Shown one piece after another: positions 11,258-21,867 of a DNA stretch of 36,674 nt. Both the position numbers and the translations under genes were made by a program. The stretch spans positions 1 to 36,674 of the forward strand of contig JAAZKC010000124.1 of assembly GCA_012800005.1 (NCBI GenBank), read 5' to 3'. Each line of letters begins with the position of its first letter. Within the stretch, counting starts at the first letter, position 1. A model generated the notes under the pieces. The model ran no database searches. It had not been told where the DNA came from and saw only the letters and a list, made by a program, of their open reading frames with translations. This DNA is from Acholeplasmataceae bacterium (lineage in GTDB: Bacteria > Bacillota_I > Bacilli_A > Acholeplasmatales > UBA5453).

Positions 11258-12220
11258 TTAAAACGGTATTCCCGCGGCTTTCGGTGCCCTCGATTTCTTT
11301 GAGGTGATTGCTAAAACAACCATTGTCACAATATAAGGTATCATTCTAAAGAACATCGCGATTGGCACATTAGGCATTGATTCAATCCAATTAGCAATAA
11401 AATCAAAACCAAAATAAATAACTGATAATGCTTTAAAGAAGCCAAAAATTACTGATGCTAAAAAGACTTTTAGTGGTCTCCACTGACCAAAGATTAATAC
11501 CGCTAATGCCAAAAATCCAGTTCCTGCAACAGAGCCGTTAAAACTTACTGAACTAGTAATAACATAAATAAGTCCCCCCACTCCCGCAAGTACTCCTGAT
11601 ATTATTACACCTACATAACGGTATTTAATAACGTTTATTCCCGCTGCTTGTGCTGCTTGTGGGTGTTCACCACAACTAGATAATCTTAAGCCAAACTTAG
11701 TGTATTTAAATAAAAACCATGATACTACTAAAATTATAATTCCTAAATAAGTTGTAAGATATGCTTTATTAAAGAAAATTTCATTAATAGGTCCAAGTTG
11801 ATGTAAAAAGTTTGACCTTAATTGGAAATTTGCTTGAAAAGGAATTCTCGTATCATTAATAATCCATTTCATTAAATATAACACTAATGCAGCTGCAAGT
11901 AAGTTAATTGCTGTTCCACCAATTGTTTGGTCAGCTTTCATATTAATTGAAAGGAATGCTAATAAAAGAGAGAAAATTCCTCCACTTAAAGCGGCAATCA
12001 ATATTGCTAATATTAATAATAGTTGAGGATTATCTAAGAAAAACGGATTTTTCTGCATAAAATGGATAAATAATGTTCCACTAAAAGCACCAATAACCAT
12101 TAATCCTTCTAAAGCAATATTAACAATTCCACTTCGTTCACTAAACATTCCCGCTAAAGCAACTATTAAAAGGGGAATAATAAATATCAGTGATTGGATA
12201 ATAATAAATTCAAGTGTCAT
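11258..12220 (-). CDS. Nucleoside/BMP ABC transporter permease (NupQ/YufQ-like)
   Basis: MFSERSGIVNIALEGLMVIGAF...GAINLLAAALVLYL...LFKYTKFGLRLSSCGEHPQAAQAAGINV; ATGA overlap with upstream permease. Confidence 0.9.
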   Translation of the reverse strand: MTLEFIIIQSLIFIIPLLIVALAGMFSERSGIVNIALEGLMVIGAFSGTLFIHFMQKNPFFLDNPQLLLILAILIAALSGGIFSLLLAFLSINMKADQTIGGTAINLLAAALVLYLMKWIINDTRIPFQANFQLRSNFLHQLGPINEIFFNKAYLTTYLGIIILVVSWFLFKYTKFGLRLSSCGEHPQAAQAAGINVIKYRYVGVIISGVLAGVGGLIYVITSSVSFNGSVAGTGFLALAVLIFGQWRPLKVFLASVIFGFFKALSVIYFGFDFIANWIESMPNVPIAMFFRMIPYIVTMVVLAITSKKSRAPKAAGIPF

Positions 12221-13461
12221 AAAACTCCCTCCTTTGGTGCTTCTTCTTCAATAATGCTAAGTTCTTTTCCTTCTTTACGTTTTTTTAAGAATTTAGATAC
12301 ATACTGGCTTACAATTAAGGAAAATGCACTAAAATATAAGATGATTGCGACAATCATATTAACCATTTCACTAGAAATTCCAATTGATTGTAATGCTAAG
12401 TCACTTTGTTTAATATAAGAAATAAATAGTGCACTAAAGAAAACTCCAATTGGATTACTATTTCCTAAAAGAGCGATAGGAATTCCATCAAATCCAGCTG
12501 GTAAAACAACACTTTCAACATTGTAGGTATTTCCTAAGTTAAAGATGCTTGGTGCTAAAATAAATAAAGCTCCACCCATTCCCGCTAACAATCCAGAAAT
12601 AGTCATTGATAAAATAATCGCTTTCTTTTCTGCAACTCCTGCATATTTCGCAGCGTGGTGGTTATAACCAACACTCTTTAGTTCTCTTCCAAAAACTGTT
12701 TTATTTAAAATAAAGTAAAATACTATAACCGCGATAATTGCCAAAATTATTCCAAAATCAGCACCTGAGTTAGGGAATATTTTATCTAAAAAGGCATATG
12801 GTGTTCTTCCAGCCTGATCAATAGGAATAGTTCTGTTTTGAGCTTGGTTAACCATTTTTGATTTTAATGGTCCATCAAGCATTCCATTAATAAAAAATAG
12901 TCCTATATAGTTAAACATTATTCCCGTAATAACAACATTCACATTAAAGTATGCTTTAAATGCTCCAGGTATCATTCCCCAAACAGCTCCAGCTAAGGCA
13001 CCACATAATACCGCAACCGGCCATTGCATAAAGCCTAAACTATCACCTAATATTCCAACAACCATTGCCGCAAATAAGCCTACCATATATTGTCCCGACG
13101 CCCCAATATTAAAGACACCAGTTTTAAAGGCGAACGCAACCGCTAACCCTGTAAATATTAGTGGAGTTGACCGGTACAATAACTGACCAATCCCTGACCA
13201 AAAGCCAAATGGATTATTAAGTGGTCCTCTAAGTAATCGCCAAATTCCATTAAGTGCGTTTCCTGGTTTATTAATTATTATTAAGATAATTCCAATTAAT
13301 AATCCCAATACAATCGCTAATAATGAAGCAATAAACTTCTTGTAACCTTCTTTTTCTTTTAAAACTTTATACTCTTTTATTAGATATTTAGCCGCTATAA
13401 CTATTTTTTCGCCAACTAATTTAAAAAAGTTTGTAAATTTATTTTTTTTCATAAACACCAC
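12217..13461 (-). CDS. Nucleoside/BMP ABC transporter permease (NupP/YufP-like)
   Basis: LIFTGLAVAFAFKTGVFNIGASGQYMVG, YNHHAAKYAGVAEKKAI. Confidence 0.9.
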   Translation of the reverse strand: MVFMKKNKFTNFFKLVGEKIVIAAKYLIKEYKVLKEKEGYKKFIASLLAIVLGLLIGIILIIINKPGNALNGIWRLLRGPLNNPFGFWSGIGQLLYRSTPLIFTGLAVAFAFKTGVFNIGASGQYMVGLFAAMVVGILGDSLGFMQWPVAVLCGALAGAVWGMIPGAFKAYFNVNVVITGIMFNYIGLFFINGMLDGPLKSKMVNQAQNRTIPIDQAGRTPYAFLDKIFPNSGADFGIILAIIAVIVFYFILNKTVFGRELKSVGYNHHAAKYAGVAEKKAIILSMTISGLLAGMGGALFILAPSIFNLGNTYNVESVVLPAGFDGIPIALLGNSNPIGVFFSALFISYIKQSDLALQSIGISSEMVNMIVAIILYFSAFSLIVSQYVSKFLKKRKEGKELSIIEEEAPKEGVL

Positions 13462-15052
13462 TTCTTTCTTTAACGATTTTTAGTTCACGACTATCAAACT
13501 TAACTTCAGGTATTTTATCTTTTTTAACACCTGCCATATATAATCCTAGTTCATTTACTGTGACATCTTTCGTTAAAATATCTTTAACAATTTCACCTTC
13601 ATAAATAACTAAAACTCGATCACTAACTGAAAATACTTCATCTAAATCTAAGGAAATCATTAAAATTCCTTTACCCTTATCGCGCTCTTCAATCATTTTC
13701 TTATGGGCAAACTCAACTGCCCCTACATCAAGACCTCTAACTGTTTGAATCGCTAAAATAAAGTCTGAATCTTTATCAATTTCTCTTGCGATAATGGCTT
13801 TTTGTTGGTTTCCACCACTCATATGACCCGCAAGTGATTTAGTCCTTCTTCCACTACGAATATCAAAATCTTTAATTAATTTTTCTCCTAAAACATCAAT
13901 TTCTTTTTGATTAATTAAACCATGTTTTTGATATGGAGCTAAATGATATTTTTTAAGTGAAAGATTATTAGATAAACTTTCTTCTAAAATAAGTCCATAT
14001 CTATGTCTATCTTCAGGTATATGACTCATGCCATTATCGTTACGATAACGAATTGATTTTTTTGTCACATCAACATAATTTAAATATATTTCTCCACTTG
14101 TTGGCTTTAAAAGACCACTAATCACATAACCTAACTCAGTTTGACCATTACCATCAATTCCCGCTAAACAAACAATCTCACCTCTATTAACTTTAAATGA
14201 AATGTCTTTTAAAACATGTTTTTTTGTAAAATCATCAACATAATTTATATCTTTTAACATTAAAACATTATCACCAATAACACTTTCCTTTTTTTGAACT
14301 GTAAAGTCAACATCCCTACCAACCATATAATAAGAAAGTTCTTCTTTATTAGTTTCACTAACATTTAATGTTTTAATTAATTTTCCTCTTCTTAAAACTG
14401 TAACACGATCACATACTGAAACAATTTCATCTAATTTATGCGTAATAAAAATAATTGATTTCCCCTCCGCTGCAAGATTTTTCATTGTAATCATAAGTTG
14501 ATCAATCTCTTGTGGAGTTAATACGGCAGTCGGTTCATCAAAAATCAAAATCTCATTTTCACGGTAAAGCATCTTTAAAATTTCTGTTCGTTGTTGCATT
14601 CCAACAGAAATATTTTCTATTATCGCATTTGGATCAACTTGAAGCTCATACTTTTCACAAAGTTCTAAAAGTTCTTTTTCAATTTCTTTTCTTGAAATAA
14701 TTCCATTTTTCGTCTTTTCAACACCTAATATAATATTATCAAGCACTGAAAAAACCTCAACTAACTTAAAGTGTTGATGGACCATTCCAATTCCATGATC
14801 ATTCGCATCATTTGGGCTTAAAATTGAGATAGGTTCACCATTTTTATAAATTTGACCACTATCTGCGGTATACATTCCAAATAAAATGCTCATTAAAGTT
14901 GATTTACCAGCTCCATTTTCACCTAAAAGAGCGTGAATTTCGCCTTTTCTAAGTTCAAAGGTAATATTATCATTAGCGATTATTCCAGGAAATGCTTTCG
15001 TAATATTCCTCATTTCAATAATGTTTTTTTCCATACTCACCTCATCATACAA
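13439..15052 (-). CDS. Nucleoside/BMP ABC transporter ATP-binding protein with two ABC domains (NupO/YufO-like)
   Basis: MRNITKAFPGIIANDNITFELRKGEIHALLGENGAGKSTLMSILFGMY, VGMQQRTEILKMLYR; second domain with degenerate Walker A (GIDGNGQTEL) typical of sugar/nucleoside type. Confidence 0.93.
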   Translation of the reverse strand: MYDEVSMEKNIIEMRNITKAFPGIIANDNITFELRKGEIHALLGENGAGKSTLMSILFGMYTADSGQIYKNGEPISILSPNDANDHGIGMVHQHFKLVEVFSVLDNIILGVEKTKNGIISRKEIEKELLELCEKYELQVDPNAIIENISVGMQQRTEILKMLYRENEILIFDEPTAVLTPQEIDQLMITMKNLAAEGKSIIFITHKLDEIVSVCDRVTVLRRGKLIKTLNVSETNKEELSYYMVGRDVDFTVQKKESVIGDNVLMLKDINYVDDFTKKHVLKDISFKVNRGEIVCLAGIDGNGQTELGYVISGLLKPTSGEIYLNYVDVTKKSIRYRNDNGMSHIPEDRHRYGLILEESLSNNLSLKKYHLAPYQKHGLINQKEIDVLGEKLIKDFDIRSGRRTKSLAGHMSGGNQQKAIIAREIDKDSDFILAIQTVRGLDVGAVEFAHKKMIEERDKGKGILMISLDLDEVFSVSDRVLVIYEGEIVKDILTKDVTVNELGLYMAGVKKDKIPEVKFDSRELKIVKERSGVYEKK

Positions 15053-15085
15053 AGTAAATATTTTTTAAATGATAATTAAAATAAG

Positions 15086-15107
15086 GGGGACAAAAATTTT
15101 TGTCCCC
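15086..15107 (-). terminator. Intercistronic perfect palindrome hairpin (BMP / ATPase genes)
   Basis: GGGGACAAAAATTTTTGTCCCC, 22-nt perfect palindrome between the BMP gene and the downstream ATPase gene; no strong T-run on minus strand. Confidence 0.6.
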
Positions 15108-15128
15108 ATATTTCTTCTTTAATCTAAA

Positions 15129-16236
15129 TTAAGAACCAAATGGTATAACTGTAACCTTAACTTCTGTTGTTTCAAATTGTTTTGCAGCGTTTCCATCGTC
15201 TCCAAATTCACCAATCACGCTACTAACTGTAACAGTTCCCGCAACTAATTTAGCATAAATATCATCATAATCAGCTTGTGAGAATGTTCTCCATCTAGAA
15301 TTTGCCATTGGTAAGCCAACACCTTCAGATTTAACATCTAAAATAACTGATTTACCACCGAATTCTTTATTGAACGTACCATAGAAGATTGCTTCAAGTA
15401 CTTGTTCAACTGAACCTGCTAAGTTCTTAGTAGAACTTGAAATAACTCTAGTTGAATCTGCGCTTTGGTCAACGTCAACACCGATAACCCATTTATCTGT
15501 ATCCGCTTCTGCTGCCGCCATAACTGATTGTCCTACTGCACCACCACATGCGAAGATTACTTCAACACCACCAGCATACATAGTTGCTGCTGCTGTTTGA
15601 ACTTCTGTAGTTGCTTGGAAGTCACCAGTATATAAATATTGGATTGTAACTGCGCCTGCTTCTAATCCTAATTCTTCAGCTGCTTTTGCTGCACCTTGAA
15701 CATAACCATGACCAAATCTTTGAACTGCTGGAACAGCCATTCCACCCATAAATCCTAGTTTTCTAAAACCATCTTTAACTGCTGCATAGCCTGCTAGGAA
15801 TCCTGTTTGTTCTTCAGCATAGAAAATTGATGCTACGTTTTTGTTAATCTTAACTTCTCCATCTACTGTTGGTGCTCCATCAAGTAAGATGAATTTAACA
15901 TTTTTGTGAGCTGATTGAACAGTTCCAATTGGTGCTTCAAATAAGAAACCTGGTGTTACAATAATTGTTGCTCCATCAGCGATTGCTTGGTTAATAGCCG
16001 CAATGTATTGTTCGTTGTTCGCTTCTGTTGGTTTTAAATATGCATATCTAACGCCTTCTTTATACACCAAACGCTTTAACACCTTCATAAGATCCTTGGT
16101 TAAATGATCTGTCTGTAATGTCTCCCTTGTCTGTGATTAAAACGATTTTTTGACTTTCTTTGTCAATCTTCTTATCACAGCCACTTAAACCTACGATTGC
16201 GAATGCCGCAATCAATAATGCTACTAATTTTCTCAT
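15129..16236 (-). pseudogene. BMP family ABC transporter substrate-binding lipoprotein, split by a single-nucleotide frameshift
   Basis: N-terminal 58-aa ORF 16236..16060: MRKLVALLIAAFAIVGLSGCDKKIDKESQKIVLITDKGDITDRSFNQGSYEGVKAFGV* (lipobox LSGC). The rest continues in the +1 frame (YKEGVRYAYLKPTEANNEQYIAAINQ... to 15129). SD GGAGGAGAAAG upstream. Confidence 0.85.
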
Positions 16237-16341: not shown

Positions 16342-16818
16342 TTACAATTCTTTTATTTCATTTAATTCTTTATTTGTGAATAAATAAAAGTCAAAACACT
16401 TCTCCAATGGTCTAATAAAAACTATTTCATTTTCATTAATATATTTAACCATCTTATTTGGATGCGGATAAACAATTAACATTTTAGGTTCTTCTACTAA
16501 ATCAAACCCGTTTAGGGGAATTAATTTAATCTTTTTAGCTGGTTTTACTTGCCAGTGTGTCTTAGAATTAATTGATAATTCTTTATAGCCACCAATATAT
16601 AATAGTTTAAGTTTGTATGTAACACCATTAACTAAAAAATCATAATGATAAGCCCCTTTATTTGATGGGGTTAAAGTACCTATTTCATTAAGTTTTTTAA
16701 TAATTTCTTTAGTTTGCTCTTTAATATTTACTTTAATTATTAAAGATACCACCGTAATAATCAAAATTCCTACCGCAATAAATATTAAAGATATCTCACC
16801 TATACCTAGTAAAAACAT
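16342..16818 (-). CDS. Hypothetical protein with one N-terminal transmembrane helix
   Basis: Open frame with N-terminal TM (IGEISLIFIAVGILIITVVSLII) and soluble domain; no family recognised. Confidence 0.75.
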   Translation of the reverse strand: MFLLGIGEISLIFIAVGILIITVVSLIIKVNIKEQTKEIIKKLNEIGTLTPSNKGAYHYDFLVNGVTYKLKLLYIGGYKELSINSKTHWQVKPAKKIKLIPLNGFDLVEEPKMLIVYPHPNKMVKYINENEIVFIRPLEKCFDFYLFTNKELNEIKEL

Positions 16819-16822
16819 ATAA

Positions 16823-18520
16823 TCACTCCACTAAATAAGTAATAGTCTCATAAGGTCTTAATGTTAAGTTTGTTAAGGCTTTATTTGGATTATCATAATT
16901 AGATAATAATACTTTCTTAACTTTATAACCTCTTATTGATACATTCACATCTTTATTAAAAAAGTTAGAAACTGTTAAAATCTTTTTATTTCCTATTCTC
17001 ACATAAGCATAAACATCTTTATGTCTAGGTAGTAATTGTTTATAACTACCATAAATTAAAGTGTCTTTATACTTAGGATTAGCCCTTAGTTTAAAGATTT
17101 CCCTATAATGTTTGTAAATACTTTTTTCATCTTCTAAGGCCTTTTTAACATTATATTCTTTATGATTAGGAAGAATGTTAAACCATGGTTTCACATTAGA
17201 AAAACCTGCATATTTTGAAGAGTCCCAACTCATAATTGTCCTTGCGTTATCACGACTCTTAATTCCCATCAAATAAATATATTCATCTTTATTAGGACTA
17301 TTTTCTATATCATTTAAGTAATAATTATTTTTATCTTGAACATCATTAAAATCATCAATAGTTCTAAAAGGATAATTAGTCATTCCAATTTCTTCTCCTT
17401 GATAGACAAATGGTGTTCCCCACATAAAATAAAGTGAACTTCCTAACATACTTCCAGATAAGTAAATGTTATTAGGATCTCCATATTGACTAATTAATCT
17501 AGGATGGTCATGATTTAACCAATAAATTGGCGTCCATGCTTTACCATAAAGACCGTATTGCCACTTTCTAAAGTTTTTCTTTAGATTAACTAAATCAACT
17601 ACTACTTGCTCTTTTTTATTTAAATCCCAAACATTATTACTCCAACAATGATCAAAGTTAAATACCATATTAAGTGAACCAGCTTCTAAATTTGAATATC
17701 TAAGTGCTTCTTCTGGTGTAGCTCCACCACCAACCTCACCGATTGTGACAATATCATATTTATCAAAAACATTTTCTTTAAACTCTCTTAAATAATCAAA
17801 AATAACTGGTAAATTAGAAAACATTCGCCAATCAGGTTTATATTTTCCTAAAGTATCCATAGTAGAATCAATAAGTTCATCTTTTCTTCCTAAGTGCGCT
17901 ACCGCATCAATTCTAAAACCATCAATTCCTAAATCAAGCCAAAAGGTGGCAACATTCATCATTTCATGTCTTACTTTAGGATTCTTATAATTTAAATCAG
18001 GCATTTTATTAGAAAATATTTTCATATAATATTGGTTAGTTAATATATCTTTTTTCCAACAAGAACCGCCAAAGAAAGAGGCCCAGTTTGTTGGTGGAGT
18101 TTCTACACCATCAACAATCTTTCCGTCTGCCCAAATATAGTAATCTCTATAAGGGTTATCTTTACTCTTTCTTGATTCAATAAACCAAGCATGTTCATCA
18201 CTTGTATGATTCATCACAAAGTCAGCGATTATTCTAATTCCTAATTTGTGTGCATCTTTAATTAACAACTTCATATCATCAAGAGTTCCAAATGATGGGT
18301 CAATATCAAAGAAATCCGCTACATCATAACCATTATCATCCATTGGTGATTTATAAAATGGACAAATCCAAATTAAGGTTATTCCTAAATCTTTTAAATA
18401 AGGAAGTTTTTCTCTAATTCCATTTAAATCTCCAATACCATCGTTATTGGAATCTTTAAAGCTTTTTAAATAAATTTGATAGCCAACTGCTTCTTTCCAC
18501 CAAGTAGGCTTATAAAACAT
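16823..18520 (-). CDS. Alpha-glucosidase / oligo-1,6-glucosidase (GH13)
   Basis: WWKEAVGYQIYLKSFKDSNNDGIGDLNGIREKLPYLKDLG; catalytic regions intact: IADFVMNHT, GFRIDAVAH, TIGEVGG, LNHDHPR. Likely start MFYKP (track ORF starts 18529). Confidence 0.93.
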   Translation of the reverse strand: MFYKPTWWKEAVGYQIYLKSFKDSNNDGIGDLNGIREKLPYLKDLGITLIWICPFYKSPMDDNGYDVADFFDIDPSFGTLDDMKLLIKDAHKLGIRIIADFVMNHTSDEHAWFIESRKSKDNPYRDYYIWADGKIVDGVETPPTNWASFFGGSCWKKDILTNQYYMKIFSNKMPDLNYKNPKVRHEMMNVATFWLDLGIDGFRIDAVAHLGRKDELIDSTMDTLGKYKPDWRMFSNLPVIFDYLREFKENVFDKYDIVTIGEVGGGATPEEALRYSNLEAGSLNMVFNFDHCWSNNVWDLNKKEQVVVDLVNLKKNFRKWQYGLYGKAWTPIYWLNHDHPRLISQYGDPNNIYLSGSMLGSSLYFMWGTPFVYQGEEIGMTNYPFRTIDDFNDVQDKNNYYLNDIENSPNKDEYIYLMGIKSRDNARTIMSWDSSKYAGFSNVKPWFNILPNHKEYNVKKALEDEKSIYKHYREIFKLRANPKYKDTLIYGSYKQLLPRHKDVYAYVRIGNKKILTVSNFFNKDVNVSIRGYKVKKVLLSNYDNPNKALTNLTLRPYETITYLVE

Positions 18521-18685
18521 AAAATACACCTCGCTTATATAAGTATACCATGTATAAGTTAAAAAACTAACATCCTATTTTATGTTTTTTTAGTTTTTTT
18601 GTTATAATATTGTATAACTTATTTTAGAGGGCTAATATTTATTAAAATTTAGTTATATGATAAAATTATCATGAGGTATATTATT

Positions 18686-21238
18686 TTGAGAACATTAAAG
18701 CTAATTATAACTACATCCTTACTATTAATAGGTCTTTTTGTAGGCTTTTTATTGCGTGCTCAAGATGAATCTTTAGAAATCTATTATTTTGACCCTTTAA
18801 ATCAATATGAAGACATCCAATTATCATTTGTGAGCACGGCTAAAAATGAACCAATAATAACTTTTGAAAGTGAAGTTGTTACTTTAAATAGCTTAAAAAT
18901 GGTTAGGTTTTCAACAACACACATAAGTTTTGAAAAAGCCCAACTTAAATTAACTTATACTAAAATAAAAGAAGAAATGCCTACCACTGTTGAAGAAACT
19001 TTTGAGATTGTCTTAAATGAAGAGTATAAAAGGGATAGTGTTTATAGGTATTATTTAAGAAACAATAAACTCTTTCAAACGGCAGTTGAGCTTAATAATG
19101 ATATTTTATATGCAACATTTGATAAACCAACATTTGGTAGTGTTGTAATAAAGTTTAAAACACTTCATCCAATTAGTGATTTAACAAAGATTACTTTAAA
19201 AGAAGGTGAAAACGAACTTCCAATCGAAGATATTCGACTTCACGGCGATACATATTTTTTTAATACAGATGAAATTGATATTAAAAAAGAATATCTTTTA
19301 GTGATTGACTTTTTAGAACTAGAAATTAAGTCTTATTATGTTCGTTATGACTTTTTATATGATGATGGCTCTTTTATGGGTAAATATAATTACTTTGGTA
19401 ATGATTTAGGAGCTAATTATAGTGAAACTTCGACAACTTTTAAAATATGGGCACCTTTATTAAAAAATATAACTTTAAATATTTACTCTACTATTGGTGA
19501 AAAAGAAAGTTCTTATGCGATGATTGAAGGTAACTTTGGTGTTTTTGAACGGAGAGTTCCTGGTAATCTTAAAAATAAAGAATACACCTTTTCTTTTGAA
19601 AGATATGGAAAAACTCATGAAATCATCGATCCAAATGCGAAATACATTAGCCATGATAATAAACGTGGAGTTATTATAAATCCACTAGAGGCAAACCCTC
19701 GCAATTATAAGAGTTATTCTTTAACTTTTAAGGGGACCTATGTTGATGCGGTTATTTATGAAGCGAGTATTGAAAAAATGACTAATGATTTTTCAATACC
19801 TAACAATTACAAAAATACTTTTTATGCCTTAACTAGAACAAATGCCACTCATCCTCTTGATAGTGAAATAAAACTAGGAATTAATCATTTGGTTGATTTA
19901 GGAATTACTCATATTACATTAAATGATATTTTTGATAGTACTAATTCTTTGAAAGCACCAAACAATAAATATAAACTTAAATCAAGTTCTAAACCAAAAG
20001 CGATGGGGGAGTTAAAAACACTAATTCATAAACTAAATGAGTATGATATTGGAGTTATTTATGAGTTTAATATTAATAGGCCAGTAATTGAGGCATTAGA
20101 ACTTTTAATGCCTGGTTATTATTATGAACATCTTGATGGTAATATTATTAAAAATGATGGTAATGCAAATTTCAATTTTAATAATCATATGGTCGAAAAT
20201 TACCTATCTTCTACTATTAGTTATTTAGTGGATGAATATAATTTAGCAGGTATTAAATTAAGTCCACTTAACCATTTTAAGGTAGACGTTGTCAATGAAA
20301 TGTATCAATCTTTACTTAATGATAATTCTAAATTTATTATGTATGGCGAGTTTGGATTAGAACCTCATAATAAAACTGGTAAAATTAATAAAACTAATTT
20401 AAGAAATGTTTCTTTAGTTGGGGTTATTGATACTAGATTTAAAACACTTAATAACTTTTTTAATGAGGGAACAGCTGATTTAAGAGAATATTTATTAAAA
20501 GAGCCAACTATTAACTTTCAAACTGCGAACATTAATCAAACATTTAATAAATTACCTAATTTAAGTTCCTATAAAGAATCTGAGCGCGCTCAAGCTTTAT
20601 ATATGAACTTACTTTCTTTTGGAGTTCCAGTTATCAAAGCCGGAGATGAATTTAATGATTATGGTGAGTATTTAACATATGATTATAGACTTACACAATG
20701 GAATTTCCATCGTAATTTTAAAGATTTAATTAAATTTAGACAAACTCAAAAATCACTTAAATTAGAAGAACATAGTGATGTTAAGAAAATGGTTTTATAT
20801 AAACATGAAGGCAATATTATTACCATTCAAATTACTAACCTTGACAATCAGTATCCAGAATTATTATTTATTTATAAAAACAAATTTACTTCTAATGAAA
20901 AAATTATTTTACCAGTTGGTCTAGATACCGAAGAAAAAAGAAAACCCAATGATGGGTCATTAGATTGGCGAACCATTTTTTCAAATGATTATAATTATGT
21001 AGATGGCATTTATGAAAGTGAACATGAAATGTCTTTAAATAATAACCAAACATTACTACTTCATTTTGGAGAAATTAGTGGTAAAATAGTTGAAATTCCT
21101 CCAAGAATACCGGAAAAACCACAAGATAACACAGGTATTTTATTAAAATCACTTATCTTTGTTGGAATAGCAATGGTGGTTGCGGGAATTTTCGTGACAT
21201 ACTTTATTTTAAAACCACCAAAAGAAAATAACTCTTAG
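18686..21238 (+). CDS. Membrane-anchored pullulanase-like GH13 protein, predicted catalytically inactive
   Basis: N-terminal TM (LKLIITTSLLLIGLFVGFLL), CBM48/pullulanase-like YNYFGNDLGANYSETSTTFKIWAPLLKNITLNIY, (beta/alpha)8-like region with eroded GH13 motifs, C-terminal TM (LLKSLIFVGIAMVVAGIFVTYFIL). Probable TTG start at 18686 preceded by GAGGT; track ORF starts at ATG 18671, which lacks an SD. Confidence 0.8.
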   Translation: MRTLKLIITTSLLLIGLFVGFLLRAQDESLEIYYFDPLNQYEDIQLSFVSTAKNEPIITFESEVVTLNSLKMVRFSTTHISFEKAQLKLTYTKIKEEMPTTVEETFEIVLNEEYKRDSVYRYYLRNNKLFQTAVELNNDILYATFDKPTFGSVVIKFKTLHPISDLTKITLKEGENELPIEDIRLHGDTYFFNTDEIDIKKEYLLVIDFLELEIKSYYVRYDFLYDDGSFMGKYNYFGNDLGANYSETSTTFKIWAPLLKNITLNIYSTIGEKESSYAMIEGNFGVFERRVPGNLKNKEYTFSFERYGKTHEIIDPNAKYISHDNKRGVIINPLEANPRNYKSYSLTFKGTYVDAVIYEASIEKMTNDFSIPNNYKNTFYALTRTNATHPLDSEIKLGINHLVDLGITHITLNDIFDSTNSLKAPNNKYKLKSSSKPKAMGELKTLIHKLNEYDIGVIYEFNINRPVIEALELLMPGYYYEHLDGNIIKNDGNANFNFNNHMVENYLSSTISYLVDEYNLAGIKLSPLNHFKVDVVNEMYQSLLNDNSKFIMYGEFGLEPHNKTGKINKTNLRNVSLVGVIDTRFKTLNNFFNEGTADLREYLLKEPTINFQTANINQTFNKLPNLSSYKESERAQALYMNLLSFGVPVIKAGDEFNDYGEYLTYDYRLTQWNFHRNFKDLIKFRQTQKSLKLEEHSDVKKMVLYKHEGNIITIQITNLDNQYPELLFIYKNKFTSNEKIILPVGLDTEEKRKPNDGSLDWRTIFSNDYNYVDGIYESEHEMSLNNNQTLLLHFGEISGKIVEIPPRIPEKPQDNTGILLKSLIFVGIAMVVAGIFVTYFILKPPKENNS

Positions 21239-21867
21239 ATTATTTCTAAAAGTTCTTTTAAATTACTAATTATTTTATAAGGTTTAAATATTTCTAATTC
21301 TTCTTTTCTTCTAAACCCATATGTTACCGCAATGGCTCTTATATTAGAGTTTATTGCGGTTTTCATATCGGTTTCTGTATCACCAACATAAATTGTTTCT
21401 TTCTTAGTTACGCCTAATGATTTCATAATATGATTAGGCATATCGCTTGCTGGTTTTCTCATAAATTTTTCACTGGTTCCAATCACAAAAGAAAAGACTC
21501 CAGGAAATAAATCTTCAATTAATGATTTAGTAATTTCATCTTGCTTATTTGAACATACCGCAAGCTTTAAATTTGTTTTCTTTAGTTCTTCTAATGTTTC
21601 TTTAACACCAGGATAAGGCTTAGTATTGTCGTTTTGGTGAATTTTATAATGAGCATCATAAACTTTATAAACTTCATCATAATTTTCAATTTCACCAAAA
21701 GATTTTTCTAGTAAATACCTTGGGCCTTGACCTAAAAAATATTTGATTTCTTCTTCCGTTCTTGGCTTTTTATTAAACTTATTTAATGTGTAGTTAACAC
21801 TATTTGTAATATCAGTTAATGTATCTAGTAGTGTTCCATCTAAATCAAAGATAATTAATTTAATCAT
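21235..21867 (-). CDS. HAD superfamily hydrolase, phosphoglycolate phosphatase-like
   Basis: IIFDLDGTLLDTLTDI, AVCSNKQDE, YVGDTETDMKTAINSNI. Confidence 0.9.
   Translation of the reverse strand: MIKLIIFDLDGTLLDTLTDITNSVNYTLNKFNKKPRTEEEIKYFLGQGPRYLLEKSFGEIENYDEVYKVYDAHYKIHQNDNTKPYPGVKETLEELKKTNLKLAVCSNKQDEITKSLIEDLFPGVFSFVIGTSEKFMRKPASDMPNHIMKSLGVTKKETIYVGDTETDMKTAINSNIRAIAVTYGFRRKEELEIFKPYKIISNLKELLEII

Follow-up and report, generated by a model that had tools for sequence, protein, structure and literature searches.

Background

Type I pullulanases (GH13_14; TIGR02104, AmyX, PDB 2wan, 3wdh and 2e8y) are built from a CBM48, a GH13 barrel and a C-domain, in that order. In GH13 enzymes the [YF]NWGY loop, the region I His, the region II Arg and the region IV His contact the substrate, and the region I Asp does not act as one of the catalytic carboxylates; the aromatic residues of CBM41 domains bind glucan. 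Pseudoenzymes of the GH13 family have already been described in animals and in plants. The animal protein 4F2hc is a membrane-anchored subunit with a GH13 fold and without an active site (PMC8537225). In plants, ISA2 is a non-catalytic debranching-enzyme paralogue, with a CBM48 and a GH13 barrel, that is bound by ISA1, and the loss of its catalytic site is conserved across the whole lineage (PMC12510319). No description of a bacterial pullulanase pseudoenzyme was found in the open-access literature. The protein analysed here, encoded by wall-less relatives of Acholeplasma, represents to our knowledge a new bacterial pseudoenzyme family. Annotation pipelines may label it 'pullulanase', and thereby credit it with an activity that is almost certainly absent.

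Results and discussion

The gene and its orthologues

The gene lies in a stretch of 36,674 nucleotides (the window), on contig C58 of an assembly of 1.4 Mb in 167 contigs (G000). It forms a single intact reading frame, 18671-21238 on the forward strand, of 855 codons and with zero internal stops, in agreement with the first-pass annotation, which had given about 850 codons. Translation probably starts at the TTG at 18686 rather than at the ATG at 18671, since the orthologue starts align there, a GAGG is found 9 nt upstream, and the spacing to the promoter-like element TATGNTANNAT is common to all five genes. This element is conserved at -27 to -30 from the start in every case; because it was picked after inspection, its shuffling rates (0.4-1.1% each) are merely indicative. 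A generic promoter scan stayed at chance level, and the motif emerged from the comparison of the orthologues. In G+C content, both overall and at third codon positions, the gene is like its neighbours, which gives no pointer to a recent foreign origin. Repeats within the gene are unremarkable.

Other genera of this Acholeplasmataceae family contain four full-length orthologues of about 36% identity (G002, G003, G005 and G006), so that 5 of the 13 family genomes carry the gene. It is absent from G001, a 100% complete genome of the same genus as the window. No further carriers turned up when 160 genomes of the order and a 395-genome sample of the class were searched with a profile. In a scan of named genomes the single protein gave no match, and the alignment matched the named records of these four orthologue genomes, all of them Acholeplasmataceae MAGs. 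Viral contigs contained no orthologue, and the active pullulanases and relatives found there served to deepen the alignment; on plasmids only distant, ordinary pullulanases were detected.

A probably secreted protein with a pullulanase fold

The assignment to the type I pullulanases made in the first-pass annotation is borne out. The protein matches the type I pullulanase family in NCBIfam (E 9e-44), at 149.5 bits against a curated TIGR02104 cut-off of 504.5, and PDB pullulanases are matched by the single protein (E 5e-29) and by the family profile (1.8e-58). Pfam yields CBM48 only (PF02922, 38 bits, cut-off 22.4). Homology to the pullulanase fold thus covers both the CBM48 and the barrel. An AF2 model of the 586 residues from the CBM48 through the barrel to the C-domain, built from 10 sequences, was of moderate confidence (pLDDT 69, pTM 0.63), and its best PDB matches in Foldseek were pullulanases (2wan, E 1.5e-35, TM 0.60); the Arabidopsis ISA2-ISA1 heterotetramer came lower in the match list. 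Regions I to III are well modelled in it, and much of the half that contains region IV falls below a pLDDT of 50. A full-length model based on 5 sequences (pLDDT 51.7, pTM 0.31) was set aside, and its Foldseek TM of about 0.2 was disregarded.

Two membrane anchors had been proposed, of which the C-terminal helix stands. The N-terminus has the short basic start and hydrophobic core of a Sec signal, followed by an x-x-Ala motif (in orthologues LRA|QD, VKA|EN and LFA|VN); the active paralogues begin in the same way. This hydrophobic stretch is probably a cleavable signal peptide, which leaves one anchor rather than two. Judged from these features, the protein is probably secreted and held by a single C-terminal helix, with its body facing outward. 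Between signal peptide and CBM48 lies a domain derived from CBM41: the PUD profile matches the active anchored paralogues, but gives no match at E<=1 for the pseudoenzymes, and the Trp pair of CBM41 is gone in all five. The features of the locus are collected in Table 1.

Table 1. Features of the pseudo-pullulanase locus (window positions; residues in the numbering of the 855-aa frame)
Feature	Position	Strand	Residues, basis and remarks
158-aa single-TM protein	16342..16818	-	Conserved neighbour
Divergent GH13 alpha-glucosidase-like gene	16823..18529	-	Catalytic motifs intact, no visible signal peptide; same neighbour in 5/5 carriers
Conserved extended -10 promoter-like element TATGATAAAAT	18656..18666	+	Orthologue comparison
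Shine-Dalgarno-like GAGG	18673..18676	+	Sequence; 9 nt upstream of TTG 18686
Pseudo-pullulanase gene	18686..21238	+	Probable start TTG 18686 (850 aa); ORF opens at ATG 18671 (855 aa); orthologue alignment, SD and promoter spacing
Probable cleavable signal peptide	18686..18760	+	Residues 6-30; hydropathy, -1 Ala in orthologues
Degenerate CBM41 (PUD)-derived domain	18773..19030	+	Residues 35-120; Trp pair lost; aligned to active paralogues
Second N-terminal beta domain	19037..19366	+	Residues 123-232; aligned with active anchored paralogues; strands in low-confidence model
CBM48	19406..19639	+	Residues 246-323; PF02922
GH13 barrel without catalytic residues	19733..20800	+	Residues 355-710
Deleted-loop site ([YF]NWGY in active enzymes)	19940..19945	+	Alignment
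Region I equivalent YEFNINR (active: MDVVYNH)	20060..20080	+	His lost; alignment
Region II equivalent AGIKLSPLN	20246..20272	+	Ser531 (codon 20261-20263) in place of the nucleophile Asp
Region III YGEF	20342..20353	+	Acid/base Glu560 retained; alignment
Region IV equivalent, about KLPNLSS	20549..20569	+	Residues 627-633; His-Asp lost
C-terminal transmembrane anchor, then short tail	21143..21211	+	Residues 825-847; mean hydropathy 2.62; kept in all orthologues
HAD phosphatase gene	21235..21867	-	Convergent; 4-base overlap with 3' end of pseudoenzyme gene

Loss of the catalytic site

The five pseudoenzymes were compared with 28 active paralogues, of which 20 are secreted and 8 are cytosolic, AmyX-like enzymes. 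The [YF]NWGY loop, the region I His, the Arg and the Asp nucleophile of region II, and the His-Asp of region IV are kept in 28/28 of the active set and are gone in 5/5 pseudoenzymes. A catalytic loss common to the orthologues, as a search for conserved substitutions had been meant to establish, is therefore found throughout. Two of the changes go beyond those listed in the first-pass annotation: the complete deletion of the loop (YNWGY in type I pullulanases) in all five proteins, and the loss of the CBM41 tryptophans.

The individual motifs differ in how far they have changed. Region I, reported as lost, is indeed altered, with the His gone from every protein, but its first position is still acidic in all five (a Glu in the window protein and an Asp in each of the four orthologues) and its Asn is kept in two. 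The reported loss of the nucleophile from region II is complete: Ser or Thr takes its place in 5/5, within a replacement K-[IL]-[ST]-P-L-N that is invariant among the five proteins, and profile alignment to 2wan sets K-I-S over R-F-D. The acid/base Glu of region III, described as remaining, is present in the window and in four of the five proteins altogether, but one orthologue reads YGD. For region IV the loss of His-Asp was correctly noted, but the string read as its remnant, ANINQTF, is out of register, as NINQTF matches the NP[NS]Q[ST]xNY strand that comes before region IV; the His-Asp is absent from 5/5, also under the alternative register. In spite of the residual Glu, the protein almost certainly has no catalytic activity, to judge from its sequence.

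The alignment of the active set has 89 invariant columns. Of these, 31 persist in four or more of the five pseudoenzymes, and 49 have disappeared from every one of them. All 49 map to the barrel region and none to the CBM48, where several of the persisting columns are found. At 18 active-conserved columns a different residue has become fixed in 5/5 (P419D, R486E, R529K and L532P among them, window numbering), in some cases at or beside the former active-site motifs. These fixed switches suggest that the cleft has been rebuilt, and not merely eroded.

Descent and selection

In a phylogenetic tree the five pseudoenzymes group together (100/100); the stem of their clade is long (2.73) and joins the active anchored enzymes of G008 and G009 (99/95); given the long branch the exact sister is uncertain. 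An active anchored paralogue is also encoded in four of the five carriers. In the fifth, G005 (85% complete), the pseudoenzyme and a cytosolic pullulanase were found and the active anchored paralogue was not detected, so that the pseudoenzyme may not depend on this enzyme as a partner.

Purifying selection on the pseudoenzyme is strong. The dN/dS analysis that had been suggested (Nei-Gojobori, one species pair, G003 versus G006) gave 0.086 for the whole protein, 0.067 for the barrel and 0.066 for the CBM41-derived domain, compared with 0.078 for the alpha-glucosidase neighbour; of the active pullulanases, the cytosolic one gave 0.037 and the anchored one 0.120. With a catalytic loss that is common to the orthologues and with selection of this strength, we are highly confident that the protein is a selected pseudoenzyme, and the earlier proposal of selection for a non-catalytic role is upheld.

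Gene neighbourhood

The alpha-glucosidase adjoins the pseudoenzyme on the opposite strand in 5/5 carriers, always within a GH13 neighbourhood, and its catalytic motifs are present, as had been noted. The small membrane protein downstream of it has no Pfam or NCBIfam match and occupies that position in G001 as well as in each of the five carriers. The HAD gene lies on the other side of the pseudoenzyme in G000, G003 and G005. In G002 one cyclomaltodextrinase-like GH13 gene (L038:5295-7118, +) separates the two, and in G006 the HAD gene is near the end of another contig. Such a cyclomaltodextrinase-like gene alone fills the gap between HAD and alpha-glucosidase in G001 and G004, and it was not seen at the locus in G000, G003 and G005. 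The arrangement in G001 and G004 indicates that the linkage of alpha-glucosidase and HAD is independent of the pseudoenzyme. The neighbourhood is thus an inherited position, and weak evidence for a role in alpha-glucan metabolism.

In G009 the equivalent slot, between the GH13 gene on the HAD side and the alpha-glucosidase, is taken up by the active anchored enzyme of that genome together with an ABC cassette of the maltodextrin type, an arrangement that may be ancestral or may stem from a second insertion. Two ORFs that by eye resemble insertion-sequence transposases lie beside the cassette (L043:2071-3677, -) and may mark how the slot was rearranged. The window also encodes, at 11258-16088 (-) beside the alpha-glucosidase cluster, a Bmp/PnrA-type substrate-binding protein, an ATPase and two permeases. 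In NCBIfam the ATPase and one permease come nearest to a putative B6 ABC transporter, with scores below the cut-off, and the system is not of the maltodextrin type.

The pairing of a surface binder with the neighbouring hydrolase, as put forward in the first-pass annotation, is unsupported as a physical pair. The alpha-glucosidase, lacking a visible signal peptide, should be cytosolic, whereas the pseudoenzyme would face outward; moreover, the linkage persists where the pseudoenzyme is absent.

Possible function

The catalytic residues have nearly all been lost, yet selection has kept the protein intact, which makes a different, non-enzymatic job probable. We tentatively favour a neofunctionalised, non-catalytic accessory or scaffold subunit of a cell-surface alpha-glucan machinery, with a remodelled cleft. 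Its ancestor would have been a paralogue of a secreted, C-terminally anchored CBM41-CBM48-GH13_14 pullulanase that lost its catalytic and most sugar-contact residues, probably on a single occasion before the carrier genera diverged; strong purifying selection would then have held it in the new form. After export a single C-terminal membrane helix would display the non-hydrolytic CBM48-barrel body outward. A partner, which would be a protein or, less likely, a glycan, might be bound through the old cleft face, the remodelled side of the barrel that carries the invariant residues D419, E486, K529 and P532-L533-N534. Both this partner and the alpha-glucan role are conjectural. Against an accessory subunit it can be said that the complete congener G001 lives without the gene, and that the neighbourhood exists without the pseudoenzyme.

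A surface role unrelated to alpha-glucans, in which the pullulanase fold is reused as an adhesin, a receptor or a 4F2hc-like transporter partner, seems somewhat unlikely to us. It would agree with the joint loss of sugar-binding and catalytic features, the new invariant residues, and the patchy distribution and fast divergence between genera, but less well with the alpha-glucosidase that adjoins the gene in all carriers, although that linkage predates the pseudoenzyme.

The surface glucan binding proposed originally is weakened by the loss of the CBM41 aromatic pair together with most sugar-contact residues of the barrel (the loop, the His of regions I and IV and the Arg of region II), and is still live. 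A lectin-like protein of this kind would hold maltodextrin or starch near the cell for an active enzyme or transporter by means of its CBM48 and the remaining barrel surface. Despite the well conserved CBM48 and the GH13 surroundings of the gene, we consider it improbable.

An enzyme with altered chemistry, which would combine Glu560 with a carboxylate from elsewhere (e.g. the region I Glu465 of the window), could draw on the Glu kept in 4/5 proteins and the acidic first position of region I in 5/5. That position does not provide a catalytic carboxylate in active enzymes, however, the fifth orthologue has Asp in place of the acid/base Glu, and along with most of the substrate contacts both the nucleophile and the region IV Asp have disappeared, so that such an enzyme is very improbable. 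Finally, a decaying gene or an assembly artefact, as might be suspected from its presence in only 5 of 13 family genomes and from a source MAG with an estimated contamination of 8%, is ruled out almost completely by the orthologues, which together with the window give an intact gene beside the same neighbour in five independent assemblies, by the low dN/dS and by the conserved signal peptide and anchor.

Comparison with known systems

The pseudoenzyme resembles type I pullulanases in sequence, in fold and in the order of CBM48, barrel and C-domain, but reaches only 149.5 of the 504.5 bits and lacks the loop, the region I His, the nucleophile and the region IV His-Asp. Its nearest branch in the tree consists of active anchored CBM41-CBM48-GH13 pullulanases, a type that also occurs in the same genomes (in G000 on contig C12, L040:6383-9181) with the same signal peptide, N-domains, CBM48, barrel and C-terminal helix. 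Unlike the pseudoenzyme, these keep all catalytic residues, and nearly all of them keep the CBM41 aromatic pair. As most carriers encode such active paralogues of the same architecture, the job of a dead debranching enzyme can be tested side by side with that of a living one.

By analogy with 4F2hc and ISA2, the protein might possibly act as an external subunit of a surface complex, containing a transporter or a pullulanase, that evolved independently in wall-less bacteria. Like ISA2, it is a non-catalytic paralogue with CBM48 and GH13 barrel and a lineage-wide catalytic loss, whereas ISA2 is a plant GH13_11 protein of separate origin, bound by ISA1 and without a membrane anchor. With 4F2hc and rBAT it shares a membrane-anchored extracellular ectodomain of the alpha-amylase family, the active site being absent in 4F2hc as well; these animal proteins, however, belong to a different GH13 lineage, carry the anchor N-terminal to the ectodomain and are bound to amino acid transporters.
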